This document shows positions 4,896-23,266 of a stretch of DNA of 64,000 nt, in pieces (positions within the stretch are counted from its first letter, which is position 1; each line of letters opens with the position of its first letter). The DNA is from Puniceibacterium antarcticum (GTDB lineage Bacteria > Pseudomonadota > Alphaproteobacteria > Rhodobacterales > Rhodobacteraceae): the NCBI RefSeq assembly GCF_002760615.1, contig NZ_AWWI01000064.1, positions 1 through 64,000 of the forward strand, given 5' to 3'. A program made the position numbers and the translations under genes. The notes under the pieces are model-generated. The model was given only the letters and a program-made list of their open reading frames with translations, made no database searches and was not told the origin of the DNA.

Positions 4896-6758
4896 TCACA
4901 AAGCCTGTGCCATCACCACGCCGAGGCGGCGCGCAAACTCGGACGGGTCCGCCAGGTCCTCTCCTTCCACGATGCGCGCCTGATCCAGAAGCAGGTGAGC
5001 TGCGTCCTTGAGCAATGCATCCGATCCCGCGTCACTGCCTTTCGCGCGCTCGGCAAGCTTGATAATCACTTGATGGGTCGGATTCAGTTCTAATACTCGC
5101 GGCATGCCCTGTTGCAACTGTCCGTGCCGTTTGAGCAGGCGTTCAAGATTGACGTCCATGTCCCCTTCATCAGCAATGAGACAGACGGGGCTGCCCGTCA
5201 GGCGCTTTGAGGGGCGTACGTCTTTGACAGCGTCACCAAGCTCGGCCTTGAAAACCATAATCAAGGCGTCGAGATCGGCTGCGTTTTCGTCTTTGTCAGT
5301 CTTGTCGTCTGCCGAAGAGATTCCGTCCAGATCCGCCGCTCCGCGTGTGATGGATTTGAGCGGTTTGCCGTTGAACTCCGTGACGTGTTGCAACCAAAAT
5401 TCATCGACGTGGTCAGATAGCAGCAGCACTTCAACGCCCTTGGCCTTGAAGCCCTCAAGATGCGGTGATTGTGCCACTTTGGCGGCGTTTTCGCCCGCAA
5501 TGTAGTAAATCGCCTCTTGGCCGTCTTTCATACGACCAACGTAGTCAGAAAGGCTGATGACATCGCTCCCTTGCGTCGACGCAAAGCGGCAGACCTCGAG
5601 AATCCGGTCGCGCAAACCTGCATCTTCGACCAACCCTTCTTTCAGAACTGCGCCGAAGTTCGCCCAGAACACGGCGTATTCCTCGGGCGCCTTGGTCGCC
5701 TTTTTCTTGAGCTCGCTCAGGACCTTCTTGGTGATCGAGGTTTTGATCTTGGCCAGCGTAGGGTCGGTCTGGAGCATCTCGCGCGAGACGTTCAACGACA
5801 GATCCTGCGAGTCGACGATACCACGCAGAAACCGCAGATACGCCGGGATCAGGTCTTTCGTCGTTTCAGAGATAAAAACGCGGTTTACGTAGAGCTTTAC
5901 ATGGCTCTTGCGCTCCCCATCAAACAGATCGAACGGCGGAGTTGACGGTATGAACAGCAGGCTGGTGTGGTTGACCGTGCCTTCGACACGGTTGTGCATG
6001 ACGTGCCACGGTTCATCGAAGGCGTGCGACGTGTGGCGGTAGAACTCAGTGTACTGCTCTGCCGAAATATCCTTGGCCGGGCGCGTCCAGATCGCAGAAG
6101 CCGCGTTCAGAGTTTCCTCGCCCAGCTTGACCGGGAAGCTGATGTGTTCGGAGTAAGTCTTGATAATGTGACGGACCCGTGCGTCCTCGGCGAATTCCTT
6201 GGCATCCTTTTTCAGGTGCAGCGTCACGATCGTGCCGTTCGCGTCCCGCTCGGCAGGCTCGATGGAGAATTCACCCTTGCCGTCCGACGACCACAGCCAG
6301 CTTTTTTCTTCGCCAGCCTTGCGGGTCAGCACATCGACCCGGTCTGCGACCATGAAGGTGGAATAGAAGCCGACCCCGAACTGCCCGATCAAGCCGACGG
6401 TATCCTTCTTTTCGGCCTTGAGTGCTTCGATAAAAGCGCCCGTGCCGGATTTGGCGATGGTGCCAAGTGTCTCCAGCAGATCCGCATGGCTCATCCCGAT
6501 GCCATTATCCGACACCGATAATGTCTTGGACTTTGTGTCGATTGCCAGCGTTATGGCCAGCGCATCCGCAGCTTGTGCCAGCGCGGGATTGGTCAGGGCG
6601 GCATAGCGCAGCTTGTCGCAAGCATCCGAGGCGTTCGATACAAGTTCGCGCAGGAAAACCTCGCGATTGGAGTAAAGGGAGCCTGCCACGATATCGAGCA
6701 GTTGACCGACCTCGGTCTGGAACGAAAAAGTCTCTTTCACGCTTGCGTCGCTCATCAC
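4896..6758 (-). CDS. htpG: Molecular chaperone HtpG (Hsp90 family)
   Basis: ATP-dependent cytosolic chaperone, 620 aa, full length for bacterial Hsp90. The N-terminal GHKL ATPase shows LRELVSNASDACDKLRY (Glu and Asn for ATP/Mg), DNGIGMS, GTIAKSGT and GQFGVGFYS. The middle domain includes NVSREMLQ, and the C-terminal dimerisation domain ends near LLLDQARIVEG. Two adjacent Met codons (6758, 6755) are possible starts. A candidate heat-shock promoter lies about 40-65 bases upstream. It is a core gene flanked on both sides by mobile remnants. Confidence 0.97.
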   Translation of the reverse strand: MMSDASVKETFSFQTEVGQLLDIVAGSLYSNREVFLRELVSNASDACDKLRYAALTNPALAQAADALAITLAIDTKSKTLSVSDNGIGMSHADLLETLGTIAKSGTGAFIEALKAEKKDTVGLIGQFGVGFYSTFMVADRVDVLTRKAGEEKSWLWSSDGKGEFSIEPAERDANGTIVTLHLKKDAKEFAEDARVRHIIKTYSEHISFPVKLGEETLNAASAIWTRPAKDISAEQYTEFYRHTSHAFDEPWHVMHNRVEGTVNHTSLLFIPSTPPFDLFDGERKSHVKLYVNRVFISETTKDLIPAYLRFLRGIVDSQDLSLNVSREMLQTDPTLAKIKTSITKKVLSELKKKATKAPEEYAVFWANFGAVLKEGLVEDAGLRDRILEVCRFASTQGSDVISLSDYVGRMKDGQEAIYYIAGENAAKVAQSPHLEGFKAKGVEVLLLSDHVDEFWLQHVTEFNGKPLKSITRGAADLDGISSADDKTDKDENAADLDALIMVFKAELGDAVKDVRPSKRLTGSPVCLIADEGDMDVNLERLLKRHGQLQQGMPRVLELNPTHQVIIKLAERAKGSDAGSDALLKDAAHLLLDQARIVEGEDLADPSEFARRLGVVMAQAL

Positions 6759-7217: not shown

Positions 7218-7588
7218 CTATTCCAAAATGTACCCAAGAGCGCGATATCCAGTTCGTCGTTTGGCGGCCATTCTGGAGAGAACTGGCACCGCACTGTCGA
7301 CATAGTCGACCACCAGGACGTCCTTCTTTGCATCATGTTGCCGATGTAACCTCCCGACATATTGCGCCAGAGTGCCCTTCCAAGAGATCGGCATCGTCAA
7401 GAATAGAGTATCGAGGCGGGCGTCATCAAAACCTTCACCGATGTAGCGCCCTGTCGCGAGGATCAGGCGCTCCTCATGATCCTCAACGTTCATAGCCGCC
7501 GTGGCGACCTTTCGATCTTTAGCTGACATGCCCCCACGAAGCACGACCAGGTTCTTGGTAAATCTGGAAAACCTATTTTGCAGATATT
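7218..7588 (-). pseudogene. C-terminal remnant of a superfamily 2 helicase (TOTE-type primase-helicase)
   Basis: About 120 codons of a helicase C-terminal RecA-like domain: VVLRGGMSAKDRK, then RLILATGRYIGEGFDDARLD (motif V region), GTLAQYVGRLHRQH (motif VI) and LSRMAAKRRTGYRALGY at the end. It lacks the Walker A half. On the minus strand it lies downstream of the primase fragment at 8612-9301. The two pieces match the order primase then helicase in TOTE conflict proteins, so they are read as ends of one broken gene. Confidence 0.65.
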
Positions 7589-7809
7589 CAAGTCGGCATC
7601 AGCCGCCTTTGAAGCGTCAACTCGACTCAAGAGACAACGGTTCGATGCCGCTGTCGCTTGATGGGAAATCCTCGTCCTTCAGGGCGGGGAAGATGTTAAC
7701 CAAACGGCTTGATCGCTTCACAAATCGGCGGCAATCTCAACCTTTAAGCGCATTTATTCCTTCGGTAGAATATCGTTCACGCGCGTCGACTAATTCAGCG
7801 GCCTGTTAA

Positions 7810-7841
7810 AAGGCCACGGCCGCACGAGCGACCGTGGCCTT
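7810..7841 (-). terminator. Intrinsic terminator of the VPLPA-CTERM gene
   Basis: Perfect 10-bp inverted repeat AAGGCCACGG / CCGTGGCCTT. On the minus strand it is followed by TTTTAA, and it begins 15 bases after the stop of the 7856-8545 gene. Confidence 0.8.
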
Positions 7842-7855
7842 CAAGCCTCGCAATG

Positions 7856-8545
7856 TCAGACGACGCGGCGTGCCGTTGCCAGGCGGCGGCCTCGACGCGA
7901 TCCGACAGCGCCGAGCCCAGCAAGGCCGGTCAGCAGCACGACTGCGCCAGCGGGAAGCGGGACAGCGGAGACCGGTGCAAGATTTGTGAAATTGTCCGCT
8001 GTTGCTGATCCATAGAACGCAAGCCCAACACCGGTACCGGCGAACATTGTGGAGAGAGTCTCGGTGAAGCTTTCGCCATTGAAGCCGGCCGTGACTGTGC
8101 CATCGCCATTTTGCGTCACGAAAAAGGTGCCGCTGGTTGCAGGGTTTGAAAGGAGTTTAAGGTATTCCCCGGACACGGCAGGCAAGCTCCCGACCACCGC
8201 GCGGTAAAAGAAAATCGAATCGAAGCCGCTGGACCCATTGTTGTTCTGGATCTTGACCATCAAGGTGTCGTCAGCCGAGGTGACACCCAACGCAATCCCG
8301 ATAAAGGCCGTCCCGCTAGCGCTGGTCGAGACATCTACCGAATAGCTATTTCCGGTTGCGCCATTGAGGGTCGAGAGCGCAAAATTGGTCCCCGATACAC
8401 TTGTCCCGTTGTGGGTCGTGCTGCCAAGGACATCGGTCCAGTTGGACTTGTTGGTGTCATTGAAATCATCGACAATGGTGGAGGCACTTACTGTGCCGCT
8501 CGCCAGGCCAGATACCAAGGCTGCAATCGCAAAAAAACGTAACAT
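7856..8545 (-). CDS. Secreted VPLPA-CTERM sorting-domain protein
   Basis: About 229 aa with an N-terminal signal peptide (MLRFFAIAALVSGLASGTVS). A Thr/Ser/Gly/Asn-rich beta-type body follows. The C-terminal sorting signal consists of VPLPAGAVVLLTGLAGLG and an Arg-rich tail. This PEP-CTERM variant is typical of Rhodobacteraceae; the family model is sorting and processing by an exosortase at the membrane. The start at 8545 is preferred over the ORF start at 8581 because it begins exactly at the signal peptide. It has its own terminator and lies between two halves of a broken primase-helicase gene. The function of the body is unknown. Confidence 0.85.
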   Translation of the reverse strand: MLRFFAIAALVSGLASGTVSASTIVDDFNDTNKSNWTDVLGSTTHNGTSVSGTNFALSTLNGATGNSYSVDVSTSASGTAFIGIALGVTSADDTLMVKIQNNNGSSGFDSIFFYRAVVGSLPAVSGEYLKLLSNPATSGTFFVTQNGDGTVTAGFNGESFTETLSTMFAGTGVGLAFYGSATADNFTNLAPVSAVPLPAGAVVLLTGLAGLGAVGSRRGRRLATARRVV

Positions 8546-8611
8546 ATCCAAATCCCCAAAAAAATAAGACTCTAACAACATAACGCTGCGGTTGAATGTG
8601 CTACAATACGG

Positions 8612-9301
8612 TCAATTGTAGCGATACAATTTTGACTCACAAAATCCCCACCTGCACTGACGAATAAGTAGCATGGCATTGCCAAATTGTCTGTCTGGCC
8701 TAGCACTCCTTTGGCAGAATTTTGCTGATCTGATAATCTCCGGATTCACGGGAGGCGATGCCTTGTCGAAATCCGCCGCCAAAAACCAGCAGGTATCACC
8801 GGGCAGCAAAGGGTAAACACCAGCTACAAAATCTCCATTTCGGCCATCGTCGCCGCGCAGGTGTTTTTCGATGATGGATTCATCAGGTGGAATGAATTTC
8901 TGATGACCACATTCACCGCATTTGACCTTTGGCTTTCCACAAATGCCTTTCACCCATTCGTTGGCGCAAGCTGGGGAGTACCCGGATCTACCGGTCTTCT
9001 TGTTTTCCCATCTTGTGGGAAATACGTCAGGTCGACCGGCGAAAAGACGGCGAAAAAGTTTTACTTTCTCGCGGGAAGTAGAGTTGTTCGTAATTGGGGC
9101 GATTCCGAAACCAGGTTGTTGTACCGATGACCTCTCCTTGGAGGCAAGTCGAACCTCGAGTGCCGCTATCTGACGCTGAAGTTCACGTCGTTCTGCTTCA
9201 AGACTGGCCAGACGTTGCCGGACCTGCGCCAAGTCTGCAGCTATTTCACTTTGGTCATTCAACCGAAGTACCCACCCATTACGCTCAGTTGGTTCCAGCA
9301 T
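8612..9301 (-). pseudogene. N-terminal fragment of a TOTE-type archaeo-eukaryotic primase protein
   Basis: The first 55 residues form a coiled coil (LAQVRQRLASLEAERRELQR). Then comes the start of an archaeo-eukaryotic primase domain: EKVKLFRRLFAGRPDVFPTR, SGYSPACANEWVKGIC, a Cys cluster (CGKPKVKCGECGHQ), and VAGVYPLLPGDTCWFLAADF with the following Asp giving the metal-binding DxD. The similarity stops right after DFDK, and the last 40 codons are unrelated. The rest of the primase and the N-half of the helicase are missing. The family is described as part of TOTE conflict systems; this copy cannot be functional as it stands. Confidence 0.7.
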
Positions 9302-9544
9302 AGTCGGACGCTACGCTTCGTATATGCCTTCAACGAAAAATCGCATGTTTTCTAAGGTAAGGCAGCACCAAAGTAGATTTGAAGCTGACCTCTTTCTTTG
9401 ATTTTCCCGGAAGCCATGACATCGACGACTTTAATAGACACTTCGCCATGCAGCCATAGCATACCGTCTATGGTTAGGGATTTGGCATTTGGCCCATATC
9501 TTCGTGTCAAGCAAAGACGCAAAGTCAACACGAAAGACCGAACC

Positions 9545-9715
9545 ATGAATACGCAATCACAATTCGAGACACCCACCCGGGTCGAAGTTCAAAAGATCAT
9601 CCAGCAGGCGCACCGGATGCGCAGCGAATATCTTGCCACGTCGATCAAGGCCGGATTGTCTAACTGTCACGCGAGATTCAGTCGCAAGAAATCTGTAGGC
9701 GGCGCAACGGCCTGA
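9545..9715 (+). CDS. Small conserved protein, RSP_7527-like
   Basis: A 56-aa protein (starts MNTQSQFETPTRVEVQKIIQ, then QAHRMRSEYLATSIKAGL, with a basic tail). It resembles small Rhodobacteraceae proteins that occur next to DUF1127 proteins, which fits the next gene downstream on the same strand. There is no signal peptide or known motif. The function is unknown. The family name is from memory of the sequence pattern and is only moderately certain. Confidence 0.55.
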   Translation: MNTQSQFETPTRVEVQKIIQQAHRMRSEYLATSIKAGLSNCHARFSRKKSVGGATA

Positions 9716-9898
9716 CCACTGCGGTCTGCGCCTGCAGATGCCATAATCACTGCCTGTCCGGGACAAGATCGCTCTCAGACTTGGTCCACACTGAGGGTCA
9801 AGTGGCGAACAGCAAGCCAATCCAGAACAGACCAGTCGCCATCATTCGCAATACGCGGTGGATCCAATTCCACAATTTGAAACGAAAGACCTAAGACC

Positions 9899-10129
9899 AT
9901 GACACTTCAGAACATTCTCACCGTACATCCCTTCGAAGGGCTCCACAATACGATCCAACAGTTTAGGGCCGACCATGCAGAGCGGCGCAGGGCAAGAGCA
10001 GTCTACGACCGGACATGGCGCGAGCTTTCGGCAATGTCCGACCCGGAACGGGCGGATATCGGTATCCACAGCTCCGACATTCCCCGGATCGCGTCCGAAG
10101 CCGCTACCATGAGCCGCAAGACATCGTAG
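9899..10129 (+). CDS. DUF1127-like small protein
   Basis: A 76-aa protein whose C-terminal half matches the DUF1127 pattern: YDRTWRELSAMSDPERADIG, then IHSSDIPRIASEA, following an Arg-rich helix (HAERRRARAV). DUF1127 proteins are small basic proteins; in some Alphaproteobacteria they have been linked to RNA-dependent regulation of phosphate or stress genes. The ATG at 9899 follows a GAAAGAC-like ribosome site. Confidence 0.6.
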   Translation: MTLQNILTVHPFEGLHNTIQQFRADHAERRRARAVYDRTWRELSAMSDPERADIGIHSSDIPRIASEAATMSRKTS

Positions 10130-10488
10130 CTCTGAGACGGTTACTGCAGCTGCCAAGCTGCAACGCACATGGCAGTTGCCCGCCCGACCTGCTTATCACA
10201 TCGTTCTAACAATACGCCCTCGCTGAACGTCCACTACGAAAAATGCTGCGCCGAGTCGCTGCGTGTCCGCTCACCGCCATCGCTACCGGTGGTGCCACGT
10301 CAACGCTGTAAAGATTTCTCAACATCGCGCTTGGGCGTCACCGGGACTGCTCCTCATTTAGATCTCCTGCGCATTTAGTATTGGGTGGGAGATAGTGTAG
10401 CTTCGGTCAGCCTACACAAGTCAGCACTCATAACAAGTTGGGCATGCACTAGGCTTCCAAGTTCAGGTAACGAGGCCCGAAAAAGGTG
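10130..10488. other. No gene recognised; probable flank of the Tn7-like element
   Basis: About 360 bases between the DUF1127-like gene and the end of tniQ. A short dyad (TGTAG ... CTACA) occurs near 10400. If the Tn7-like element ends near its tniQ side, the terminus would be here, but I cannot identify terminal repeats. Confidence 0.35.
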
Positions 10489-12300
10489 TCAGAGTTTCAA
10501 AATCGCCGCGCGCTCATACACCCGCGCATCACCTCCCGAAATTGCCGAGCCAAGCCCCGCGGCCTTGATCCGCATCATCATTGCCATCGGCGATACACCG
10601 AGGTGTTGGGCGGCTGTCTTCGGCGTTTGAAACTTCTCGAGGAATGCCTCGAGTTCGTCATAAGTGACGAGTTCGGCGGCGGCTCGCAGTCCGTTGCGAC
10701 GTCGCCGCTCCGATGGGAGTAATCCAGCAGAAACAACTTGTCGAATTTCGCGGCTGCTTAGCGCCAGGCGTTGCCGCACCTCCTCCAACGTCATGTCGGA
10801 ACGCTCTTGGCGACGTATCGCGGCGAGCAGCTCTTTATGGCTAATTCGGAGCCCCGACAGCCCGATCGCAGTTCGGTCAATATAGGAACCGGGCAGCTCA
10901 CCCGCCTCGAGAAAGCAAAGGATTTGCCCCGCCGGACACCGCAAGACGAATGTGGCATGCGAAAGGCTGATCATGTCGTGGCGGACAGCATGGCAGGAGT
11001 GAAATGTCGCCTGAGCTTCCATTCCCTTGAGAAGATCATCCAGCACATCAATACTGAAACGCGGCTTCTTGAATGCCTTTGTCGCAATGCACGTGACCAC
11101 CCTTTCTGACACAAGACCGTCGAACATGGTGATCCCGATGCCCAGAAATTTTGCGCTCTGCTCCGCCCCGAAGCTCGTCGCCAGTGTTGTTATATGCGCG
11201 GTGCATGCCCTGAGAAGTGATCTGACATTGAAACCGTCGGGAATACGCCCATCCGGTAAAAAGCCGTCGAGGATCAACGCACGCCCTACCCACTTTCTGG
11301 AGCGGTCGGTTGTCTCTGCAAGCTTCTTGATGCAGGCATCCACCTGCACTTGGGACGGGGCATAATGATGTCTGGACAACAGGCAGTAGTCGCCTTGATC
11401 CTTGATAAGGCCCAGCATGATGTCCCGAAACGCTTGCCGCTCGTCCCGCATTGAGGCCTGAAGCGCCCAGCCGTGGAACCAGGTCTTACTGAGCCTTGTC
11501 GAATGACGTCCGAGCGCTTGGTCGACCTCATCTAGCAGTTTCCCGTGGCCCACACGCGTGATCGAGAATCCCAGCTCAGTGAGCTCGCGCCGCCTTGCAG
11601 GTGGAGACGCATTGGGTCGTAAGGTGCCTTCGGCGATAAAGGCGCCCAGCCCCAGGCACCATCGCTCCAAGGTGTCGATCTGGATATCACCCAACCAGTC
11701 GATCATCAGCGTGTCAGCTTCAAGTCTCAGAAGAGCCGCGCGTTCGAAGTCCGACAGCGCTTGCCGTTGTACCCGTTCCTCCAATCGATGTAACCATCCA
11801 CCCGACAGTTCGGCGCGCAGGACATGATCATAGCAGGTCGTGTAATCTGCGTAAGGCAGCTCAATCAGCGCTGTTTCGTGGTGGCTGCAACAGGGCATGA
11901 AACGTGGCAGCCATTGCCATCGGATCGCACAGCCGTCCGCTTGGCTACCCGTCGACGACAGATCCTCCAGCCAGCAGTTGGGGCAAATGGACAGATCGTG
12001 TTTGCGGATGGACCGGGTCAGAAAACGCTGCCCATGCAGGTCAGTGTATTTCTCACTGACCTTGCGTGGACTGTGTAAGATCAGGTCTGAGCCAGACGAG
12101 CCGGTGAGCGCCGCCAGGGCTTTGAGATGCTGCGGGTCACCTGCACAGATAGCCGCTTTGCCAAGTCCCATTGCCGTGCAAAACTCGGCGGTAGACCGCG
12201 AAGCATTTGCCGAAGCGTTTCGGGACAAGGTCGAGAATGCCGGCTCGCCCACCGTGGCAGCCAAGGCGATCGGGAGCGCAGAGATCGCTTGAGTTTCCAT
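10489..12300 (-). CDS. tniQ: TniQ/TnsD-family target-selection protein
   Basis: About 603 aa. TniQ proteins choose the target and recruit the TnsC/TniB ATPase. The N-terminal TniQ domain contains the zinc cluster LSICPNCWLEDL ... FMPCCSHHE (residues about 105-150). A long C-terminal half ends with helix-turn-helix-like segments (LALSSREIRQVVSAGLL and TPKTAAQHLGVSPMAMMMRI). This length is closer to TnsD than to short TniQ, suggesting that it binds a specific DNA site. The ATG at 12300 has an upstream GGGGAG; a GTG at 12321 overlapping the tniB stop is an alternative. A 23-bp stretch at 10832-10854 recurs at 3363-3385. Confidence 0.85.
   Translation of the reverse strand: METQAISALPIALAATVGEPAFSTLSRNASANASRSTAEFCTAMGLGKAAICAGDPQHLKALAALTGSSGSDLILHSPRKVSEKYTDLHGQRFLTRSIRKHDLSICPNCWLEDLSSTGSQADGCAIRWQWLPRFMPCCSHHETALIELPYADYTTCYDHVLRAELSGGWLHRLEERVQRQALSDFERAALLRLEADTLMIDWLGDIQIDTLERWCLGLGAFIAEGTLRPNASPPARRRELTELGFSITRVGHGKLLDEVDQALGRHSTRLSKTWFHGWALQASMRDERQAFRDIMLGLIKDQGDYCLLSRHHYAPSQVQVDACIKKLAETTDRSRKWVGRALILDGFLPDGRIPDGFNVRSLLRACTAHITTLATSFGAEQSAKFLGIGITMFDGLVSERVVTCIATKAFKKPRFSIDVLDDLLKGMEAQATFHSCHAVRHDMISLSHATFVLRCPAGQILCFLEAGELPGSYIDRTAIGLSGLRISHKELLAAIRRQERSDMTLEEVRQRLALSSREIRQVVSAGLLPSERRRRNGLRAAAELVTYDELEAFLEKFQTPKTAAQHLGVSPMAMMMRIKAAGLGSAISGGDARVYERAAILKL
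10832..10854 (+). repeat. 23-bp exact copy shared with 3363-3385
   Basis: The stretch beginning TCTTTATGGCTAATTCGG is identical over 23 bases at 10832-10854 (inside tniQ) and at 3363-3385 (beside the IS5 element). The flanks differ on both sides. Confidence 0.8.
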
Positions 12301-12317
12301 GTGCAAAGCTACTCCCC

Positions 12318-13262
12318 TCACCTGTCCAGGTTGACATCTGCGGGTATGCTGACGAAGTCTTCAGCGATGAACGGGTTCATCTCTGGAAGGCAGTCGAACC
12401 GTTGCGCGTGGGTTGATCGAAAATGCTCAATCTCCAGCACCTTGTTGCCTGCGACCAGTGCCGCTTTCAGGGCCAAGATGCAGATTTCACACAATTCGCC
12501 GAACGCGTAATAGGATGCGTGAAGCAGCCTCTCGGCGAAATCTCGTGTCTTCACGGTCTTGCTAAGTTCCAGGCCCACTCCCTGACAGTAGCACGCTAGA
12601 ATTTTGATTGCGCGCGATGCGTCCACGCCAGGATCAAGGTCGGTCATATGCACGACGCTGTACCGGCGCTTGAACTGCTGGTCTGAGTTGAGGATCTCCG
12701 CGAAATCCGGGGTGCCGATCAGGATGGGGACGACCTGCCCTTTCTGGGGCTGTACCAGTGACTTGAGGGCGTCCCGCATGGACTGGCGGTCTCTGGCCCC
12801 GGCGGCACGAACATGCTGGATTTCGTCCAAGACCAGAACTCGAGTTTCCAATCTCTCGATGTAGGCGGCGACATACTGCCATATGTCCTCTGCGGAATCT
12901 CGGGCCTTCGGCGTCCAGCCATACTCCAACGAAATCAGCATGCGGAGCTTGCGGAGGGTCACATCGTCCCGAAGCGGAACGAACACGTGACCGCGCGGAG
13001 AATGCCCTACGGCCGTCCGTTGCAGACCGAGCGTTTCGAGAGCGCGCAGAACGCTCTTGGTCTTCCCGGTGCCGCTGCGCCCAAGAACGACGACACCCCG
13101 AGCGTCGGCGGGGTGTCCAAGTTCTCTTGCGGCCATAAACTCCCTAAGCGAGTTTTCTATCTGACGCGCAATGCGTTGCGCGTCAGCGTGGTCGATGAAA
13201 ATGTCGCGGCGCAGTGCCTGAACTCTGCGATCAACGTCGCTCGGTCGGAGGGCGAGAGTCAT
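12318..13262 (-). CDS. tniB: TniB/TnsC-family AAA+ ATPase
   Basis: ATPase that connects target selection to the transposase, about 314 aa. Walker A is GVVVLGRSGTGKTKS, Walker B is RVLVLDEIQHV, and a sensor/Arg region follows (PILIGTPDFAEIL ... FKRRYSVVHM). The length is normal for TniB. The start at 13262 forms an ATGA overlap with the tniA stop; the longer frame from 13283 is less likely. It is translated as the third gene of the transposition operon. Confidence 0.9.
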   Translation of the reverse strand: MTLALRPSDVDRRVQALRRDIFIDHADAQRIARQIENSLREFMAARELGHPADARGVVVLGRSGTGKTKSVLRALETLGLQRTAVGHSPRGHVFVPLRDDVTLRKLRMLISLEYGWTPKARDSAEDIWQYVAAYIERLETRVLVLDEIQHVRAAGARDRQSMRDALKSLVQPQKGQVVPILIGTPDFAEILNSDQQFKRRYSVVHMTDLDPGVDASRAIKILACYCQGVGLELSKTVKTRDFAERLLHASYYAFGELCEICILALKAALVAGNKVLEIEHFRSTHAQRFDCLPEMNPFIAEDFVSIPADVNLDR

Positions 13263-15412
13263 AGATCCTCTCCTTCCTGCCACCAGTCGGTATCTTCCTC
13301 AGGGTCATCGAGATCGACTTCTTCATCGTCTGATGTGGAAGGTGCGTCGCCCGGTAGCGCTCCGCCTTGGCCAGCGTCAGGGTCGCCGATGACGTAGCCG
13401 ATCCCGTCGTCAGCCAAATCGAGCGCGTCCAGTTCCGGTATTTCATTCTCGACGACAGACAGGCCGAGGTAGAGTTCCTTTTCCAGGCGCGCGATATCCT
13501 TCGCAGTTGCCTGTTGAGGTAGCACGCCCATGATACGCATGGCTTCATTTGCGCGGGAGCGCATTGCCTGAAGGGCGTCCGATATGGTGTCAGCAGCCAG
13601 GGCCGCTTGCCCGGCGTATCGGCGTCTTAGAATTTTCCCGACGGAAACCCACTCGTCGAGTTTCACCCCGTGGAAATTTTCGACGCTGCACTCGACCTCA
13701 AGCCATTCTTTCCCGGTGCAGACGCTGATCGTTCCTATGTCGTTGGGCTCTAGGTAAAGCGTGACCTTCGTGTTCTTTGCCCGGCGCCGGAGCTTTTGCA
13801 GTTCGCGGGAGTTGTAGGCCACCCCGAGCAATGTGATGCCTTTTGATGTTACCTTTCGATCGAGCGATATCCCGAAAGCCCTCCTCCGCATGGAGCGGGG
13901 CAACTGCGGGGGAAGTCCGACGGTGCCGCTAAGACGCTCCAGCGCCGCCGCAGGCGTCTCTCTGAAGAGCCCGGCATGGGGCGTGTTGTGGTAGACGTCG
14001 ACAACATACCGAATGAAGATCAGGGCCAATTGGTCGTCCGTCAGGACGGCCGTTTCCTCCGTCGGATAATCGCCGCGTTCCTTGGGGTTTGCGAAGGTTT
14101 GTCCAGGCAGATAGGGCATCACCCTGTATGTGAAAGTCAAAAATGGGCGCTCGATCGTCCCGCGAAACTGTGGCTCTCCCACGGTGGGATAGGAGTAGGC
14201 GGCACATGTCTCATTGACCGCTCGAGTGGTCGCGCCTGCGCGGAAAGCAGATCCGGTGTCGCTTTCGACGCCTTCAAATGGAAATCCGTGCCAAATGGAC
14301 TCCGCGCCTGCGGCAGCTGCCAAATCCGACTTGTCTCGTGTAGACATTTCCAGCGCTCGAATGGCTGACGCTGAATTTTGTGATGACGCAACGAGCAAAC
14401 CCACGATGTATCTGGTCGCGACGTCCAGGACGACGTAAAGCCATCGACGCCCGCGTGGCAACCGGTCGATCGTCTTCTGATCGAGCCCCTCTCTGATAGG
14501 CCCATTCATAATAATCGTACGCGCATCAATCTCCCACTCGTCCACTTGGAATGTCTGACCAGGACGGGTTGCCCGATTGGTCTTGCCAACACCCAAGTAG
14601 CGGCGCTTTGCGATCGCGCTGCCCTCACGACCAGCGTCGACCTCCAAGCGATCAAAACGCTTCAGCCATTCCCACAGCGCTGTCTTTCCACGTGTTTGTA
14701 ACAGCGGAAGCATGGCGGCCTCTCGTCGCTCGTTTTCGCGACGCAGCGCGTTGATCGTGTTATCAACGACTTCACGGCCTGTGTGGCGCTGGTTCAGGAG
14801 AAACTCTCTGAGTTGCTGTTGGATGAAAAGGTAGCTGTCTTGGTTGATATCGAGCTTGGAGGCCCTTCCGCGCTTATCGATAAGCGCATCCATACGGCCA
14901 CCGGCTTTTTTGACAGCGCGGTACCACCGCAAGATGCTTGCCGGGGATGCGTCGAAGCCAAAGCTGTTGCCGTTCGAGCTGAAGTACTTAGCCCCGTAGA
15001 TCTCATGGAATGTCTTCCACTCCTCTGCGGCATAGGCTTTGATGTGAGGGTAATGTTGTCCGACGCCATCGGGTCGAAGGGTCAGTCCACCTTCCGAATA
15101 CCTCCTTGTCAGACCACAGACGAAAAACCACCGGTTACAGACAAGAGTTTGGTTCGTCCGCGATAAAGCAGAGAGGCCGATGTGGGGCTGAGGTCGAGAC
15201 TTCGCCTCGTCCACGCTTTTAGATCGCTTCTCGTAGTCCCACTCTGGTTGCTGCACGATCTCATGCAGCGTCGGCCAGGTAAAACGCTCGACCGCGGCAG
15301 ATCCGTCATCTCGTCGGAAGAACGCGTGCTGATCGTCCGATTCTTCGAAAAAATATGGAACCGAGTTGATATAATAGCGTGTGACCCTATCGAAGTTCAT
15401 CCGGATTGTCAT
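13259..15412 (-). CDS. tniA: TniA/TnsB-family DDE transposase
   Basis: Transposase of the Mu/Tn7 retroviral-integrase superfamily, 717 aa. N-terminal helical DNA-binding domains precede an rve-type catalytic core. The likely triad is D in FQVDEWEIDAR, D in GVESDTGSAFR and E in FRGTIERPFLTF. A Mu-C-like beta-barrel region follows (VTLYLEPNDIGTISV). The C-terminal tail is very acidic (DDEEVDLDDPEEDTDW), which is unusual and may contact TniB. The start at 15412 overlaps the preceding gene's stop as ATGA. Confidence 0.92.
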   Translation of the reverse strand: MTIRMNFDRVTRYYINSVPYFFEESDDQHAFFRRDDGSAAVERFTWPTLHEIVQQPEWDYEKRSKSVDEAKSRPQPHIGLSALSRTNQTLVCNRWFFVCGLTRRYSEGGLTLRPDGVGQHYPHIKAYAAEEWKTFHEIYGAKYFSSNGNSFGFDASPASILRWYRAVKKAGGRMDALIDKRGRASKLDINQDSYLFIQQQLREFLLNQRHTGREVVDNTINALRRENERREAAMLPLLQTRGKTALWEWLKRFDRLEVDAGREGSAIAKRRYLGVGKTNRATRPGQTFQVDEWEIDARTIIMNGPIREGLDQKTIDRLPRGRRWLYVVLDVATRYIVGLLVASSQNSASAIRALEMSTRDKSDLAAAAGAESIWHGFPFEGVESDTGSAFRAGATTRAVNETCAAYSYPTVGEPQFRGTIERPFLTFTYRVMPYLPGQTFANPKERGDYPTEETAVLTDDQLALIFIRYVVDVYHNTPHAGLFRETPAAALERLSGTVGLPPQLPRSMRRRAFGISLDRKVTSKGITLLGVAYNSRELQKLRRRAKNTKVTLYLEPNDIGTISVCTGKEWLEVECSVENFHGVKLDEWVSVGKILRRRYAGQAALAADTISDALQAMRSRANEAMRIMGVLPQQATAKDIARLEKELYLGLSVVENEIPELDALDLADDGIGYVIGDPDAGQGGALPGDAPSTSDDEEVDLDDPEEDTDWWQEGEDL

Positions 15413-16212
15413 TGCGGCCTCCGAACGATCGAGTGGAGGTTGATGCTTCCGGTACTGACGAGGCCGAGGCGCCTTTCAAAGATGGCACGGACTGCAGCCC
15501 GGAACCCTCGCGAGCCGGTACGGCTGAGAATAATCAGATCGGTGATGGTGAACTCGCCGTCGAGTTTTGCCACCGTCTCTTCGAGGCGAGCGTCAGCTTC
15601 AGCATCCGGGCACAGAGAGAACCGCAGATAGGTCGCCGCATTCACGGCTGCAGTACGTGAAAAGCACTGCTCCGTAACCAAACGGACTTCATCCACCATG
15701 TCTGGCACCACGGCACGCCGAATCTGTTCCAGCTCGGCTAGAAAGCGACCAGATGCCAGGCGAGACGTTGGTTTCACAGCAACCGCAACTCTGCGTCCGG
15801 TCTTGTAGGTGATCAGCAGGTCGAAATAATGCGTGCCCTTCGTTCCGTCCGGCTTGCGAAACTTCACCGGACCGAATTGCTCTTGGACTTGGCGAACTCT
15901 CGGATCGATCAGCGTGACCACCAAGTTGCCGTGTTCAATTTTACTGTCCATGCCATAGATACGTGGCAAGCCGGTCTCAAGGTCGGGATACACGGCGAAG
16001 ATTCTGCATGAAGATCGCGACCTTGGATTGATCCGACGCTGACCGCGGTAAGCGAGCACGGGGTAATCTTCGCGAATGACTTCCCCCATTAGATCATCCG
16101 GAAACGCTTCTGTGGGGCCGTAGGCCCTGCGGAAGGCTTCGGGCATCCCGGATAGGTCACGACCAACCGGCGTGACCGGGGCGTTTAGACTGCGTTCGAT
16201 TGGCATATTCAT
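15409..16212 (-). CDS. TnsA-like endonuclease-family protein
   Basis: About 267 aa, first structural gene of the transposition operon. The central part has the shape of a TnsA N-terminal endonuclease domain: GTHYFDLLITYKTGRRVAVA followed by VKPTSRL, in the place where TnsA has D ... (Q/E)xK. Here the residue two before the Lys is Ala (AVK), so a catalytic residue may be lost. The C-terminal part (TITDLIILSRTGSRGF) resembles a winged-helix contact domain. Starts at 16212 (MNMPIERS) or 16206 are both possible. In Tn7, TnsA cuts the 5' ends of the element; whether this one cuts is uncertain. Confidence 0.7.
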   Translation of the reverse strand: MNMPIERSLNAPVTPVGRDLSGMPEAFRRAYGPTEAFPDDLMGEVIREDYPVLAYRGQRRINPRSRSSCRIFAVYPDLETGLPRIYGMDSKIEHGNLVVTLIDPRVRQVQEQFGPVKFRKPDGTKGTHYFDLLITYKTGRRVAVAVKPTSRLASGRFLAELEQIRRAVVPDMVDEVRLVTEQCFSRTAAVNAATYLRFSLCPDAEADARLEETVAKLDGEFTITDLIILSRTGSRGFRAAVRAIFERRLGLVSTGSINLHSIVRRPQ

Positions 16213-16398
16213 GGCATAGCATCCCTGTTTCCGGGCCGTTGAGCGCCGGATTGCGAGGACACGCAGGAGCAAGCCGCTCATGCATGCCTGTTGACTTTTC
16301 GCTGCTGTGGTGGGATGAAAGAAGGGACCAACCTTCCAAGGGCTCTGCATGCTTCGCGCTGCGGGGCCTTTGTTCTTTCATCGGGGTCGTCGGTTTCG

Positions 16399-16635
16399 CT
16401 AGGTCATTGAGACAGCTCCTTCTGGTTGGGCAAGGAGCGAAGCCAGTTCCTCGGGGTCCTCGCCAAGTAGGCGTGCGATTTCTGTTATGACCGGGAGGCT
16501 CTTCCGGTGACCGCCAATGACCAAGCTGATCGTCGAAGGATTGCGCCCAAGACGGGACGCAAGTTCTTTGATCGAAAGGCCTGCCTCTATCCGCAGACGA
16601 CATTTGATGATCTCGGCTGTGCCGCGAAATTTCAT
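16399..16635 (-). CDS. Small helix-turn-helix (XRE/Cro-like) regulator
   Basis: A 78-aa DNA-binding protein with a Cro/C1-type helix-turn-helix: LSIKELASRLGRNPSTISLV at residues about 20-40. It is the first gene before the TnsA-like gene on the same strand, 186 bases upstream. It probably regulates the transposition operon, perhaps through the dyads in its own promoter. It is not a recognised Tn7 component and could also be a host-derived addition. Confidence 0.75.
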   Translation of the reverse strand: MKFRGTAEIIKCRLRIEAGLSIKELASRLGRNPSTISLVIGGHRKSLPVITEIARLLGEDPEELASLLAQPEGAVSMT

Positions 16636-16657
16636 GTACGAACCTTGGGCAATTTTT

Positions 16658-16703
16658 GTTGACGGATACCCGAATCATGTGGGTTCGCGATTCGCAAGTC
16701 AAC
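16658..16703 (-). promoter_or_regulatory. Candidate promoter and operator of the transposition operon
   Basis: On the minus strand TTGACT (16697-16702) and CATGAT (16674-16679) are separated by 17 bases, a good -35/-10 pair, ending about 40 bases before the HTH gene start. Two near-concentric inverted repeats overlap it: GTTGAC/GTCAAC (16658-16663 and 16698-16703) and CGAATC/GATTCG (16671-16676 and 16689-16694). They are plausible binding sites for the HTH protein. Confidence 0.4.
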
Positions 16704-17007
16704 CACCATCCGCATCCATGAAAATTCAACCGTGTCAATATAGTTCAGAGTTATTTTGACAATTAACATGTGCGCGCGATTCCAGTTGCACTGACTATCT
16801 GCACTTCTGTAATCGATGGAAAACTAGGCGTATCCCATGGATCGGCACGAGGAAAAGACACGTTGGTCAGACCTGATAACGACCGATCAACGTTGTTGTC
16901 GCCTGATTTACCTTCGATCCCGCGAGGCATGGGTCCAAAACTGCGATGTTCATCGCTTCAGCCAACGCCAGATGGCCGAAGCCGCGGTGACTGGATCAAC
17001 TTCTGAA
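16704..17007. other. No gene recognised; possible transposon end
   Basis: About 300 bases between the promoter of the transposition operon and higA. TTGACA-like words recur at 16735 and 16755. One transposon end is expected here if the layout follows Tn7, with the tnsA side near an end, but no terminal repeat could be established. Confidence 0.35.
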
Positions 17008-17295
17008 TCAGGAGAGCAGCGGCTCGATCCCACTCACGTCCACCTGCCTAGCCGCAGTGCGCATATCGAAATTGGTCTGCATGTTCATCCAATATTCCGG
17101 CGTCGTTTTGAACACACGTGCCAGCCGCAGCGCGGTATCGGGCGTCATGATGGTTGAGCCCTTCACCAGCCGCTCGATGAGCGTCCGGGGAACATAAAGG
17201 CGGTGAGCCAGCGCGATCGCGCCCATCTCAAGCGGATCTAGGTACAGTTCTTTCAGGACTTCGCCTGGGTGCATCGGGTCTTGAAGCAGGCTCAT
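17008..17295 (-). CDS. higA: HigA-family antitoxin
   Basis: A 95-aa helix-turn-helix antitoxin. The family signature is clear: MHPGEVLKELYLDPLEMGAI, then ERLVKGSTIMTPDTALRLAR (HTH), and TTPEYWMNMQTNFDMRTA. HigA binds and neutralises the HigB RNase and represses the pair's promoter. It starts 11 bases after the toxin frame, in the usual toxin-first order of higBA. The gene appears intact even though the toxin may not be. Confidence 0.93.
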   Translation of the reverse strand: MSLLQDPMHPGEVLKELYLDPLEMGAIALAHRLYVPRTLIERLVKGSTIMTPDTALRLARVFKTTPEYWMNMQTNFDMRTAARQVDVSGIEPLLS

Positions 17296-17306
17296 GATGT
17301 CTCATT

Positions 17307-17576
17307 TCAGCGGCAATCGACGATCTTGACTTCGGCGGGGCCATTCTGCGTCCAGACGAAGCAGATGCGCCACTGCCCGTTGATCCCCACCGAGTGCCGA
17401 CCGGCGCGATCTCCCTTCAGTTGCTCAAGGTTGTTATCTGGCGGAAAACGCAGGTCTTCCACCGCAACAGCTGGGTCCAGCACCGAAAGCATCGCCCCCT
17501 GCGCCTCAAGAGGTCCGCCGGGAAATCCTTGCCGTACTTGCCTTGCAGCACGTTTGCCTTCGGTGCTCTGGATCAT
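17307..17576 (-). CDS. higB: HigB-family toxin, probably frameshifted
   Basis: RelE/ParE-fold ribosome-dependent RNase toxin; the open frame encodes 89 aa. The C-terminal two thirds are typical: LSVLDPAVAVEDLRFPPDNN, LEQLKGDRAGRHSVGI and GQWRICFVW. The first third is not: between about 17505 and 17560 the family-like sequence KYGKDFPADLLRR is encoded in another frame. A run of five G near 17500 looks like a one-base insertion that restores the frame. The protein made from this frame would have a scrambled N-terminal helix, so toxicity may be lost. Confidence 0.75.
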   Translation of the reverse strand: MIQSTEGKRAARQVRQGFPGGPLEAQGAMLSVLDPAVAVEDLRFPPDNNLEQLKGDRAGRHSVGINGQWRICFVWTQNGPAEVKIVDCR

Positions 17577-17620
17577 GTCCGCAATGTATCATTATGTGAT
17601 ACATGTGCGCGATGACTGTG

Positions 17621-18451
17621 TCATTGGAAGCTTGCCTGGAAATTAGTGGCGGTGAGGGTGACATGAGCTTCGAGCGGAGGCCGTAGTTCGAAGGCCTGAG
17701 GGGCGCGAGCGAACTCGTAAAGTCTGAACAGATACCAGTCATCCCGGCGTTCGTTTGCAACCTCCAGTTCGTTACGTGAGATGTGGAACGGTGTCCGCTC
17801 CAAACCGTTTGTCGTCTTCACCTCGATGAGGCGTTCGCGACCTTCGATTGTGAAACTGGCGATGTCATAGCCTGCGCCGTCGCCGTCCTCCTTGGAGACC
17901 CAACGCACACGCCGAGCTAAGGCGTCCTGGCCATGTTGCCGCAAGGTCTGACGTTCGTGATGAAAAACCCGTTCCTCACCCGCATGACCGAGAGCCCGAT
18001 TGCGCTCGTCCCGCCCCGCGACATCGAAACGCCGCGCCACCCTCTGCATTTGCTCCAGCTCTTCTGGGGGCGGTGTATTCCGCAAGGTAGGTGCTGTTCC
18101 GACGTAGAGCGCCGGAGGCTCAGCCATTGTGGAAGCGTCTTTGCGGTGAAGCGCGAGCTCCCATTCTGGATGACGCGCCAGCCAGCGAGATGCGGCCTCT
18201 GCAAGAGACATCTGGAAATTGAACCGCGGTCGATAGCCTTTGACGATGGGAAGCCCTAATCCGACACAGGCCGCAGAGACGTTGCAGAGTTTGAACTCGA
18301 TGGAGCCACGGCTCCGTCCTGTCTGATCTTGCAATGCCCGGTTCTGCGCAGCTTTGTTATAGCTGCGCACGGAGAGCTCATCGCTGAGCATCCCGAAATA
18401 AGACGCAACGACCGCGTCGTTCTCTGTGTCGGACCAATCACCTGAATTCAT
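17621..18451 (-). CDS. DUF3883-domain protein, restriction-endonuclease-like
   Basis: A 276-aa protein with two parts. The N-terminal 95 residues (WSDTENDAVVASYFGMLSDE, RSRGSIEFKLCNVSAACVG) resemble a domain found in front of various nucleases. The C-terminal DUF3883 domain contains GYDIASFTIEGRERLIEVKT and PFHISRNELEVAN, with the D ... ExK arrangement of PD-(D/E)xK nucleases. DUF3883 proteins occur in defence and restriction loci, so DNA cleavage is inferred. It lies 44 bases upstream of higB, on the same strand. Confidence 0.75.
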   Translation of the reverse strand: MNSGDWSDTENDAVVASYFGMLSDELSVRSYNKAAQNRALQDQTGRSRGSIEFKLCNVSAACVGLGLPIVKGYRPRFNFQMSLAEAASRWLARHPEWELALHRKDASTMAEPPALYVGTAPTLRNTPPPEELEQMQRVARRFDVAGRDERNRALGHAGEERVFHHERQTLRQHGQDALARRVRWVSKEDGDGAGYDIASFTIEGRERLIEVKTTNGLERTPFHISRNELEVANERRDDWYLFRLYEFARAPQAFELRPPLEAHVTLTATNFQASFQ

Positions 18452-18626
18452 TTGGGCAGGTTATGTTGGCCCGGAGGGATTGTCATTGGTCTTAAGATGG
18501 GCAGCGATGCGCAGGGAGGCCCGGAACCTGTTCAGACAAGCAGAACCACCTCTGAAGCAGATCGAAAAATTACACGAAACCGCCCCTCTCAAAGTAGGTG
18601 AACGGCGATCGGGTCAGAATGCCGAG

Positions 18627-18812
18627 TCAATCCCCATCCTCGCATGGACGAAGCCAGTCCAAGGTGCCGTTTGACTTGCAGCGGCGAACGTTCACCACTC
18701 TCAGGACCGCCTGTTCAAACTGATGCTCGTCACCTGCTTCAAACGCGTGACGGATCAGATCAAACTGCTTGTCCAAACAGTTTCCCAAATCATAATCTGA
18801 GACATCATTCAT
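18627..18812 (-). CDS. Small hypothetical protein
   Basis: A 61-aa acidic frame (MNDVSDYDLGNCLDKQFDLI, then RHAFEAGDEHQFEQAVLRVV). Its ATG overlaps the stop of another small frame at 18809, which suggests a co-translated pair. No family was recognised. The helical, charged composition is protein-like. Confidence 0.45.
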   Translation of the reverse strand: MNDVSDYDLGNCLDKQFDLIRHAFEAGDEHQFEQAVLRVVNVRRCKSNGTLDWLRPCEDGD

Positions 18813-18928
18813 TTTAGAGCTCCTCTTGCAGCCGTCAGTGAGATTTCCTCTTCATGGCACATTTGACAAATTCCTACTTCGTCAGGATCGCTCCAATCAA
18901 GGCTCAGTCCCTTATTCGTGACGATCAT
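18809..18928 (-). CDS. Very small hypothetical protein
   Basis: A 39-codon frame (MIVTNKGLSLDWSDPDEVGI, then CQMCHEEEISLTAARGALK) that ends in an ATGA overlap with the next small gene. It contains a CxxC pair. The open frame continues upstream without a Met, so this may be the tail of a longer gene cut by the repeat-rich DNA at 18.95-19.2 kb. Low certainty. Confidence 0.25.
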   Translation of the reverse strand: MIVTNKGLSLDWSDPDEVGICQMCHEEEISLTAARGALK

Positions 18929-18949
18929 ATAGCAACAAGAATCGATTAA

Positions 18950-19210
18950 AGTTTTTTTGCCATCATGGCCTTCTGCGAACTTCCCGCCAATCGAAACGAT
19001 TCGCTGCGGGTCGCTCGACCTGCAGCAACGCGCAGAATACGCCCTTTGCAAAGTCGCGGTGGCAGCGCCCGCCGGAGCGACGCCACCGGCCCTTTGCGGA
19101 CACCTGCCACCGACCCAGATTCTGCGCCGCGGCCCGTCGTTCCGGACATTCGACGCAGCCGAAAATCCGGGCGGTGGACAAGTCTCTGTCGTACTGAGTG
19201 GACACTGTTG
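18950..19210. repeat. Degenerate intergenic repeat block
   Basis: A GC-rich non-coding block with words such as CGCTGCGGGTCGCTCGACC and CCTTTGCGGACACCTGCC. It is of the same style as the blocks at 19.92-20.22, 22.08, 24.9-25.2 and 26.76-27.0 kb. Short frames across it on both strands have no family signature. It is treated as part of a dispersed, decayed repeat family. Confidence 0.4.
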
Positions 19211-19805: not shown

Positions 19806-19920
19806 GGCATCTTTTCTACCGACATTGTGAGGAAGGTGAAATCTTCAAGCCAGTGTGCCGGGGACGGTCCTAACCTGCCGTTCGCTTCCTAGCCGTGCGC
19901 TGCGGTGCAGCTTAACGAGA

Positions 19921-20224
19921 CCGGCCATTCGTCCATCGTGCAGCATTTCGGAGGGGGAAGGTCGCCAGAGCGGACTTTTCTGCCGTTCGCCGCAAGCGCG
20001 AAAATTTGAACGTGGTCAAATTGGCATCAACATGTAAGGCGGAGAACGGACCTTCGCTGCGCCCGCAAACTAAAACGGGGAAGCCGAACAAAGCGGCCGC
20101 TCGGGGCCGCCGCGCAATATTTTTTGGGGTGCATCTGCAGCGAAGGTCGGCAGTGAGCCCTCTACGTTCATTTTCACCGATGCAGCCAAAGGCTGCTTTG
20201 CGGGTAGCGAAGCGCGGAACGACC
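19921..20224. repeat. Intergenic repeat block with copies elsewhere
   Basis: Two segments of this non-coding block recur. 19921-19948 matches the reverse complement of 24987-25014 with one mismatch. 20136-20160 (TGCAGCGAAGGTCGGCAGTG and the next five bases) is identical to 22083-22107. The block fills most of the gap between 19806 and 20224, and no gene is seen there. Confidence 0.6.
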
Positions 20225-20872
20225 CTACCGGGAACCCGCAACCCTGATAGCCCTTTCTGCTGCCAGAAAAGGAGACGAGATAACGGGGATACCCATGTCG
20301 CTGAGCCGTGCTTCAGCCAGACGCATGGAGGCTTGGGCCAATAAGATGCCGTCTGGCAGAGCAGAGCGGGACACCTCGGTTCGGATGGTCGTCGCTATGC
20401 TGTCTGCAAACCCTTCATAATCGCCGCGTTCAAAGTAGGGCCACGCGGCTGCACTGAGAACAACACGGGGCAAAACGACAGTTCCCGCACGATCTGCGCA
20501 TGCTTTTAGGAGATCAAGTGTTGCCGCTTGCGTGCTTTCCAGGCAAATAGCGACCAAGATGTCTGGCCCAATCCCGCAGGTCTTTTCCATGACCGGACGG
20601 TCTATGCGAAGCACATGGTCGTGTGTCCGTGAAACCACATCCGCAATCGGCCCCAAGGTTGAGCAAGTGCACATCACCGCATCGGCCGTGGCAAGTTCGG
20701 ACAGAGCCGCCTCGACCTTGGCGCGGACATGGTCAAGACCGTGCTGCCGCGCTTGATCAAGCAGCTCCGGCATGACCCTATGCGTGCGCGCGCCTTCATA
20801 TCCCAGCTGATTCAGCAAACCATCGAAGGTTTCGACATGCACGGCGGCGGTGTGCAGAAATGCAATGTTCAT
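20225..20872 (-). CDS. Aspartate/glutamate racemase-superfamily protein
   Basis: A 215-aa enzyme of the Asp/Glu/hydantoin racemase fold, which inverts chirality at an alpha-carbon with two cysteines. The first Cys is in AVMCTCSTLGPIADV (about 67-69). The C-terminal segment PVISSPFLAAERAI fits the family, but the second catalytic Cys is less clear. It is third in a minus-strand operon after a LysE exporter and an ABM-domain protein. A role in handling an unusual amino acid that the exporter removes is an inference. Confidence 0.7.
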   Translation of the reverse strand: MNIAFLHTAAVHVETFDGLLNQLGYEGARTHRVMPELLDQARQHGLDHVRAKVEAALSELATADAVMCTCSTLGPIADVVSRTHDHVLRIDRPVMEKTCGIGPDILVAICLESTQAATLDLLKACADRAGTVVLPRVVLSAAAWPYFERGDYEGFADSIATTIRTEVSRSALPDGILLAQASMRLAEARLSDMGIPVISSPFLAAERAIRVAGSR

Positions 20873-20924
20873 CCAAGAATTTTCTTTCTGTTCGCGCGGT
20901 TAAGTGCTTTCTGCCTGCCGAGCA

Positions 20925-21254
20925 TCAAGCGACGAAGGGTATGAACGGGATCCGTTCACGCGACGCGGCTTTGGCAACCAGTTCATCAACAGCATTCAGA
21001 AAATGCGGAGACGCGTTGTGCGCGTCCCATCCCGCCCTGTCTTCGTAAAGTTCATAGACGAAGAATTCAGACGGGTTTTCTGGCGACCGGTAGGGCATGA
21101 AAAATTTCATTCCGGGCTCTGCCATGGACGGACGGACAAGGGATTTCAGAATGTCAGCAACGGCGTCGGCTTCGCCTTCCTTGGCAACAATCCTGACGGA
21201 AACCACAAATCCGGTGTTCAGGTTAGCGGCGGTGGAGTCATCATATGCGGACAT
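20925..21254 (-). CDS. Putative quinol monooxygenase (ABM domain)
   Basis: A 109-aa dimeric ferredoxin-like fold protein of the antibiotic biosynthesis monooxygenase group (YgiN-like): VVSVRIVAKEGEADAVADIL, then MKFFMPYRSPENPSEFFVYE, and WDAHNASPHF near the end. These small enzymes oxidise quinols or similar compounds without cofactors. The ATG at 21254 is chosen; the longer frame overlaps lysE. It lies 4 bases after the LysE stop, so translation is probably coupled. Confidence 0.8.
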   Translation of the reverse strand: MSAYDDSTAANLNTGFVVSVRIVAKEGEADAVADILKSLVRPSMAEPGMKFFMPYRSPENPSEFFVYELYEDRAGWDAHNASPHFLNAVDELVAKAASRERIPFIPFVA

Positions 21255-21258
21255 GTAT

Positions 21259-21900
21259 TCAGCCTCTGCTGGCAAGCAGGCGCAGACCTGCGATGGCGAA
21301 GAACAGACCAAGCATCCCCTGAATAGCACGCCGCGCGCTTGCATAGGCGCGCACCATGATGGGCGTTGAAAACGCGACGGCATAAAGGATATGGATCACG
21401 ACCGACATCAGGAATGTGCCAACAACAATGGCCGCCCCCACCCAAAGCGGCGCATCCTGTTTCAGCCCAAGGGATATGATGGCGATCCACGCCAACGCGG
21501 CCTTGGGATTGGTCATCTGAATGATGTATCCACGCTTGAGATAGCCGAGGGCGGTGCGACGCCCTCCGGCCAATTCCTTTGCCTCAATGTCGTGGCGGGA
21601 CGCGGCGGATTTGAACGCCTTGTAGGCCAGCCACAGAAGGTAGAGGCCACCAAGAACCTTGATCGCGATCAGGGCCGAGGCATAGGTTGCCAGAAGGGCG
21701 GACAGACCAAAGACAGTCAGAACCGCCCATGTGAAAGATCCTGTCGCAATCCCCATTGCCAGCGCCATACCTGACGTGCGCCCAACGCTCATCGACGTGC
21801 CGATGACGGCGAGGATGTTTGGGCCTGGGCTTGCTATGGCAAGCAGAAAAGCCGCGTAGGCCATGAGGATGCCGGGAAGGTAAAGTGAAATGTCCTGCAT
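21259..21900 (-). CDS. LysE/RhtB-family exporter
   Basis: A 213-aa inner-membrane protein with about six membrane segments that exports amino acids or related small molecules. The family signature near the N-terminus is FLLAIASPGPNILAVIGTSM. MTNPKAALAW lies in the middle, and the last helix is LGLFFAIAGLRLL. It is first gene of a three-gene operon with the ABM protein and the racemase-like enzyme. The exported substrate is unknown. Confidence 0.9.
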   Translation of the reverse strand: MQDISLYLPGILMAYAAFLLAIASPGPNILAVIGTSMSVGRTSGMALAMGIATGSFTWAVLTVFGLSALLATYASALIAIKVLGGLYLLWLAYKAFKSAASRHDIEAKELAGGRRTALGYLKRGYIIQMTNPKAALAWIAIISLGLKQDAPLWVGAAIVVGTFLMSVVIHILYAVAFSTPIMVRAYASARRAIQGMLGLFFAIAGLRLLASRG

Positions 21901-22839: not shown

Positions 22840-22923
22840 CGGCACTTGGCGCACAGTAGCGCAAATCGTTCAAAAAGGACCGTTTTGGGCAACTTTACTT
22901 TATCACAGGGGTTTTGACCTCGA

Positions 22924-23235: not shown

Positions 23236-23266
23236 AGTCCTGATACCAAGGTGTGAGGATCTCAGT

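Follow-up and report, generated by a model that had tools for sequence, protein, structure and literature searches.

A Tn7-like element beside tRNA-Gln in Puniceibacterium antarcticum encodes a TnsA of a clade with a variant active site

Results

The DNA examined here, referred to as the window, is a stretch of 64,000 nt from Puniceibacterium antarcticum (assembly GCF_002760615.1, contig NZ_AWWI01000064.1, positions 1-64,000, forward strand). It contains one minus-strand operon running from 16635 to 10489, and all five genes that a first-pass annotation had read there, with overlapping junctions, are present as described:

16399-16635, minus strand: HTH gene of the Cro/C1 type at the head of the operon, 78 aa (Pfam HTH_31, 5e-9)
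15409-16350, minus strand: TnsA-like endonuclease (PF08722, 27.1 bits against a cut-off of 26.5)
13259-15412, minus strand: TnsB-like DDE transposase of the TnsB/TniA type (Mu-transpos_C over the cut-off, rve below it; DDE residues readable)
12318-13283, minus strand: TniB/TnsC-like AAA+ ATPase with Walker motifs (TniB, PF05621, 1.7e-19)
10489-12321, minus strand: TniQ/TnsD-like target selector, 610 aa (TniQ, PF06527, 8.9e-13), with an HTH_17-like stretch near the C-terminus

The tnsA and tnsB genes overlap by 4 bp, tnsB and tniB by 25 bp, and tniB and tniQ by 4 bp. Pfam matches over the cut-off were obtained for all four transposition proteins (TnsA-like N, Mu-transpos_C, TniB and TniQ), that of the TnsA-like protein barely exceeding it, and the operon thus has the gene content by which a Tn7-like transposon has been defined, namely homologs of TnsB and TnsC together with TnsA and/or TniQ (PMC11406308). 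The HTH gene, proposed to be the operon's own regulator, is conserved upstream of tnsA in the loci of Celeribacter baekdonensis B30, Thioclava and Sulfitobacter. The start codon of the TnsA-like reading frame is likely at 16212, as a stop codon interrupts the stretch before it in B30; residues of the protein are numbered here from the corresponding Met47 of the open reading frame.

The extent of the element was traced by comparison with two relatives, B30 and G174; the latter genome comes from the same bacterial family, and its operon proteins are 39-50% identical to those of the window. The following features delimit the window element:

32900-32974, minus strand: tRNA-Gln (TTG), the attachment site, with the element 13 bp beyond its 3' end
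32810-32886, minus strand: left end, with the terminus TGTGACGTTCGCC at 32886 and the direct repeats GGAACTTATCCGG and GGCACTTCGTCCGGGCAAGA, read as TnsB sites
10400-10488, no strand: point where similarity to B30 stops, the right end being expected beyond it (comparison with B30)

The B30 copy shows 97% DNA identity over window positions 10489-19092 (NZ_AMRK01000005.1, contig 5). On contig 16 of B30, a left end begins 9 bp behind tRNA-Gln and matches the window almost base for base inward, while contig 5 carries the operon, a right end approximately 420 bp past tniQ and then ACACC. The same ACACC stands before the B30 left end and is therefore present on both sides as a 5-bp duplication. The window left end is homologous to the left ends of both G174 and B30; near-identity of the window and B30 starts at 32886, and the outer flanks differ. 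As target duplication, the window would have the 5 bp outside its left end, which read CTAAG on the minus strand. From the left end, operon, right end and ACACC of B30, it follows that the window element comprises 10489-32886 together with any part that once lay left of tniQ, and that the stretch at 17-32 kb is cargo; the interval first given, 10489-16703, covers the transposition genes only. The window and B30 elements share the operon order, the tRNA-Gln site, and the left end with its metallophosphoesterase-like gene (94%). The B30 element differs in having a right end and other cargo beside its left end, and in standing in tandem with a second related element.

In G174, both ends were found for an element of 34,373 bp (C2:755003-789375) with inverted repeats and the duplication TATTT. 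Its ends are TGTGCCGTCCGGC / TGTGGCGTCCGGC, with the termini TGTGCCGTCCGGCATGAAT and TGTGGCGTCCGGCGTGAAT, and repeats of the type GCAACTTNGTCCGGGCAAGA lie inside both ends. The duplication-plus-repeat score alone is within chance (17/19, equalled by 1 of 20 shuffles), and the element is argued instead from its position at the tRNA, from its inner repeats and from the copy in B30. The G174 cargo (L045:12132-19571 and L032:463-4447), comprising a HATPase/Z1/DUF4420/AIPR gene set, AbiEii, a cytosine methylase and an HNH gene, is of defence type, unlike the cargo of the window.

The distance between the 3' end of tRNA-Gln(TTG) and the element is 13 bp in the window, 12 bp in G174 and 9 bp in B30, so that the attachment site is the same in the three cases available. 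This bears out the suggestion of a fixed site, which the TnsD-sized TniQ would recognise. The annotation had further proposed aligning filled with empty sites. Ends, duplications and target could be obtained from the relatives, but there is no clean empty site in the same-genus genomes, where the two flanks lie apart; the tRNA-Gln of one of them (G004) carries another island. Both B30 and Thioclava have a right end with another left end 5-8 bp behind it, and we read these junctions as tandem elements. Excised circles were considered as well; for B30, a tandem pair is the better explanation, as the duplicated ACACC flanks the newer of the two elements.

The window element had been called complete, but no right end was recognisable in the window, nor did a DNA-level search across the entire draft genome find one, and similarity to B30 ends at the tniQ stop codon. 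Thus, of the two ends found in G174 and B30, the window holds the left one, at 32886. Loss of the right end from this copy is the simplest explanation; a detection gap or a rearranged assembly may be the cause instead. Since no right end is recognisable, the window copy may be immobile, no longer moving by itself. The DNA left of tniQ (9330-10480) shows a weak match to one relative only and is either chromosome or cargo. An IS5-type transposase (DUF772, DDE_Tnp_1; 3507-4463), which could have been involved in the loss of the right end, lies close to the left border of the variable region, which is situated between tRNA-Ala and tRNA-Gln. The same region contains htpG (HSP90; 4896-6758), for which no DNA-level match was found in four same-genus genomes. 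Pieces of a TOTE conflict system lie at 7218-9301, where a PEP-CTERM-like gene (7856-8581) stands between a helicase fragment recognised by reading (7218-7544) and a truncated AEP-TOTE primase domain (8612-9301, 7.9e-37). The AT-rich repeats just ahead of the HTH gene (16640-17000) resembled an element end but were rejected as one: they have no partner, and B30 keeps the DNA through 19092. Scanning the 4 kb upstream of tnsA for TGT/ACA ends flanked by 5-bp duplications gave nothing convincing.

The cargo, approximately 15 kb between the left end and the tns operon, includes a Gabija defence system:

32152-32706, minus strand: metallophosphoesterase-like gene (GNHD and GHVHD motifs by reading; no Pfam match)
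29359-31371, plus strand: GajB (Gabija, UvrD-like helicase; PADLOC GajB, 3.1e-225)
27167-29410, plus strand: GajA (Gabija, OLD-like nuclease; PADLOC GajA, 9.7e-256)
17621-18451, minus strand: NOV_C-domain protein, PADLOC candidate PDC-S36 (Pfam, PADLOC)
17307-17576, minus strand: HigB-like toxin of a toxin-antitoxin pair (PF05015, 2e-10)
17008-17295, minus strand: HigA-like HTH antitoxin (HTH_3, 1.9e-4, below the curated cut-off; adjoins HigB)

The metallophosphoesterase-like gene is kept beside the left end in relatives. Several dispersed inverted repeats of 30-50 bp, approximately 75-90% alike, occur in the cargo at 19898-27027, and the B30 element has them in its cargo too (L149). Among the larger cargo reading frames that were scanned in the window and in G174, there was no resolvase, and the frames run against Pfam and PADLOC included no Cascade or Cas12k genes. 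A second TnsA-like gene, 34% identical, lies at a contig end of the same genome (G000, C173:63844-64464; L025, L035). Because a paralog of the metallophosphoesterase-like gene precedes it by approximately 1 kb, a second related element in this genome is likely.

Querying solved structures by sequence with the TnsA-like protein alone returned chance matches only. An AlphaFold model built from 21 homologs (pLDDT 81.7) matched Tn7 TnsA (PDB 1f1z) with a Z score of 13.7 over 193 aligned residues (rmsd 5.1), compared with 7.6 for the best unrelated fold; the next matches were 1t0f and the Tn7 transpososome 9bw1. The match to 1f1z spans model residues 53-266 and takes in the C-terminal winged helix as well as the nuclease core. 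The first-pass annotation read the motif FDLLITY...VAVAVKP correctly, and profile alignment with 1f1z, which has no gap between the Ala and the Lys, sets Ala opposite Gln130. At the position two residues before the catalytic Lys (K-2), the window protein thus has Ala, as in most of its clade, instead of the usual acid or Gln, while the catalytic Glu, Asp and Lys are kept (E93, D131, K147). Among the 21 homologs Q112, D131 and K147 are invariant and E93 is nearly so. Thirteen residues after the Lys (K+13) the protein carries Glu160, which in the model lies within the helix that follows the Lys strand.

To place these residues, 31 TnsA homologs from this bacterial family, together making up a single branch (support 99/95) and called the clade here, were compared with 29 TnsA from outside it. 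The K-2 acid or Gln is found in 1 of 31 proteins in the clade and in 23 of 29 (Glu, Gln or Asp) outside. The clade has Ala, Phe, Thr, Ser and other residues at this position, with a single Glu, and is highly diverged (mean column identity 25%). Conversely, K+13 is acidic in 23 of the 31 (22 Glu, 1 Asp) and in 1 of the 29; Lys or Arg occupies it in the other 28. The two traits separate mainly along one tree branch and count as one event, not many. Outside the clade, Ala also stands at K-2 in three TnsA with no Glu at K+13 (L121, L125 and L129), and others there have Thr, Ser or Lys. Acids at both positions are found in PseTnsA, L012 and L147, which could be intermediates; with both present in PseTnsA and L147, an acid at K+13 is not confined to proteins without the first one. 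Eight of the 31 clade members have no acid at K+13, and 10 of the 31 have Arg in place of the catalytic Lys, most of them also with tnsB next door. Among these, L016, L017, L021 and L030 combine the Arg with Gln or Lys at K+13 and a neighbouring tnsB, and are the best clade candidates for a truly dead TnsA. In most relatives tnsB follows the tnsA-like gene, and both genes are under purifying selection (dN/dS 0.13-0.18 for tnsA and 0.14-0.16 for tnsB). A literature search found no papers on this TnsA clade, which is not proof that none exist.

Discussion

The window element is a new member of the tRNA-homing Tn7-like elements, and its variant TnsA active site is common to its clade. We favour, with a probability of about 0.7, an ordinary cut-and-paste element that homes to tRNA-Gln and in which the acid of TnsA has been relocated. 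The element would insert 9-13 bp beyond the 3' terminus of the tRNA-Gln gene, where TniQ, in the manner of TnsD, would recognise the tRNA gene and hand the target to TniB/TnsC, which would in turn recruit TnsA and the TnsB bound to the end repeats. TnsB would make the 3' cuts and the joins, and the TnsA-like protein the 5' cuts, with an active site in which Glu, Asp and Lys are kept and the Glu at K+13 would replace the acid or Gln at K-2. Relocated carboxylates are known (PMC551604), and in restriction enzymes of the CCGG family, for which the motif PDX21-53KX12-13E has been described (PMC4652773), the second acid lies on the next helix (PMC4652773, PMC551604). As in these KX12-13E enzymes, the Glu at K+13 probably takes the role of the missing residue, and such a relocation is likely the reason that Ala is tolerated. 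The Ala at K-2 is a trait of the clade, not a lesion. The first-pass annotation took the Ala at a catalytic position to point to a modified excision mode, and named an acid elsewhere in the active site as what would speak against an altered TnsA. At sequence level such an acid is present, as the Glu at K+13, which is where PD-XXK-E nucleases have theirs; with the Ala found clade-wide and E93, D131 and K147 kept, the inference of a modified excision mode is weakened.

Cut-and-paste is favoured because tnsA is under selection like tnsB, because tnsB follows tnsA in most relatives and because no resolvase was found among the cargo frames scanned, although simple insertions with duplications may be compatible with resolved cointegrates too. 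Cut-and-paste would be equally ordinary if the K-2 residue were dispensable, Glu, Asp and Lys sufficing and the Glu at K+13 being a bystander. The three TnsA outside the clade with Ala and no Glu at K+13, and those with Thr, Ser or Lys, point this way, but the Glu is kept in most members of a very diverged clade at a position where other TnsA have Lys or Arg, and we regard dispensability as possible but tentative. That the TnsA-like protein is a dead nuclease, retained as a scaffold for TnsB and TnsC while the element transposes replicatively through cointegrates, appears unlikely. The K-2 acid is absent, 10 of the 31 clade members also carry Arg for Lys, branches lacking tnsA exist, and point mutations in TnsA permit replicative transposition (PMC8649781); against this stand the three catalytic residues kept in the window protein, a purifying selection on tnsA equal to that on tnsB, and the scanned cargo of the window and of the G174 element, which yielded no resolvase, an enzyme that replicative branches of Tn7-like elements usually gain (PMC8649781). 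It is somewhat doubtful that the family clade as a whole has left the standard nuclease site, either by moving the acid to the following helix or by changing Lys to Arg with no acid, with part of the clade excising otherwise or not at all.

Integrases commonly use the 3' ends of tRNA genes, and behind the same tRNA in G004 lies an integrase-like reading frame (by reading), both of which would suit a tyrosine-recombinase genomic island with the tns operon as a mere passenger. The flank, however, starts with TnsB-type repeats common to relatives whose right end lies close behind tniQ, and the duplications are of 5 bp with no long att repeats, making such an island highly improbable.

The element matters in two respects, neither of which overturns current views. 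The clade offers a set of natural TnsA variants with which to ask what residues are required for 5' cutting; these residues bear on the choice between cut-and-paste and cointegrates, a practical matter for transposon-based genome insertion. In addition, tRNA-Gln, with a defined insertion distance, joins the attachment sites of protein-guided Tn7-like elements.

Compared with known systems, the window protein shares with Tn7 TnsA (1f1z, 1t0f) its fold and the equivalents of Glu63, Asp114 and Lys132, and differs in having Ala for Gln130 and, at K+13, Glu for Lys145. With the CCGG-family restriction endonucleases (PMC4652773) it has in common a Lys and a later Glu separated by 12 residues, and no acid before the Lys, but the Asp-Lys spacing is 15 residues instead of 21-53 and the function is another, so that this is a resemblance and not membership. 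Since tRNA genes have repeatedly been taken as sites by TnsD/TniQ proteins (PMC11406308, PMC10293859), the closest parallels in targeting are the tRNA-homing Tn7-like elements and CASTs of types I-B2 and I-D (PMC11406308, PMC10293859), which share a TniQ/TnsD-type protein and a tRNA attachment site, whereas the window element has separate TnsA and TnsB instead of a fusion, and no CRISPR genes were seen in it. CyCAST inserts approximately 30-33 nt past tRNA-Leu, compared with 9-13 bp past tRNA-Gln in the window, G174 and B30.
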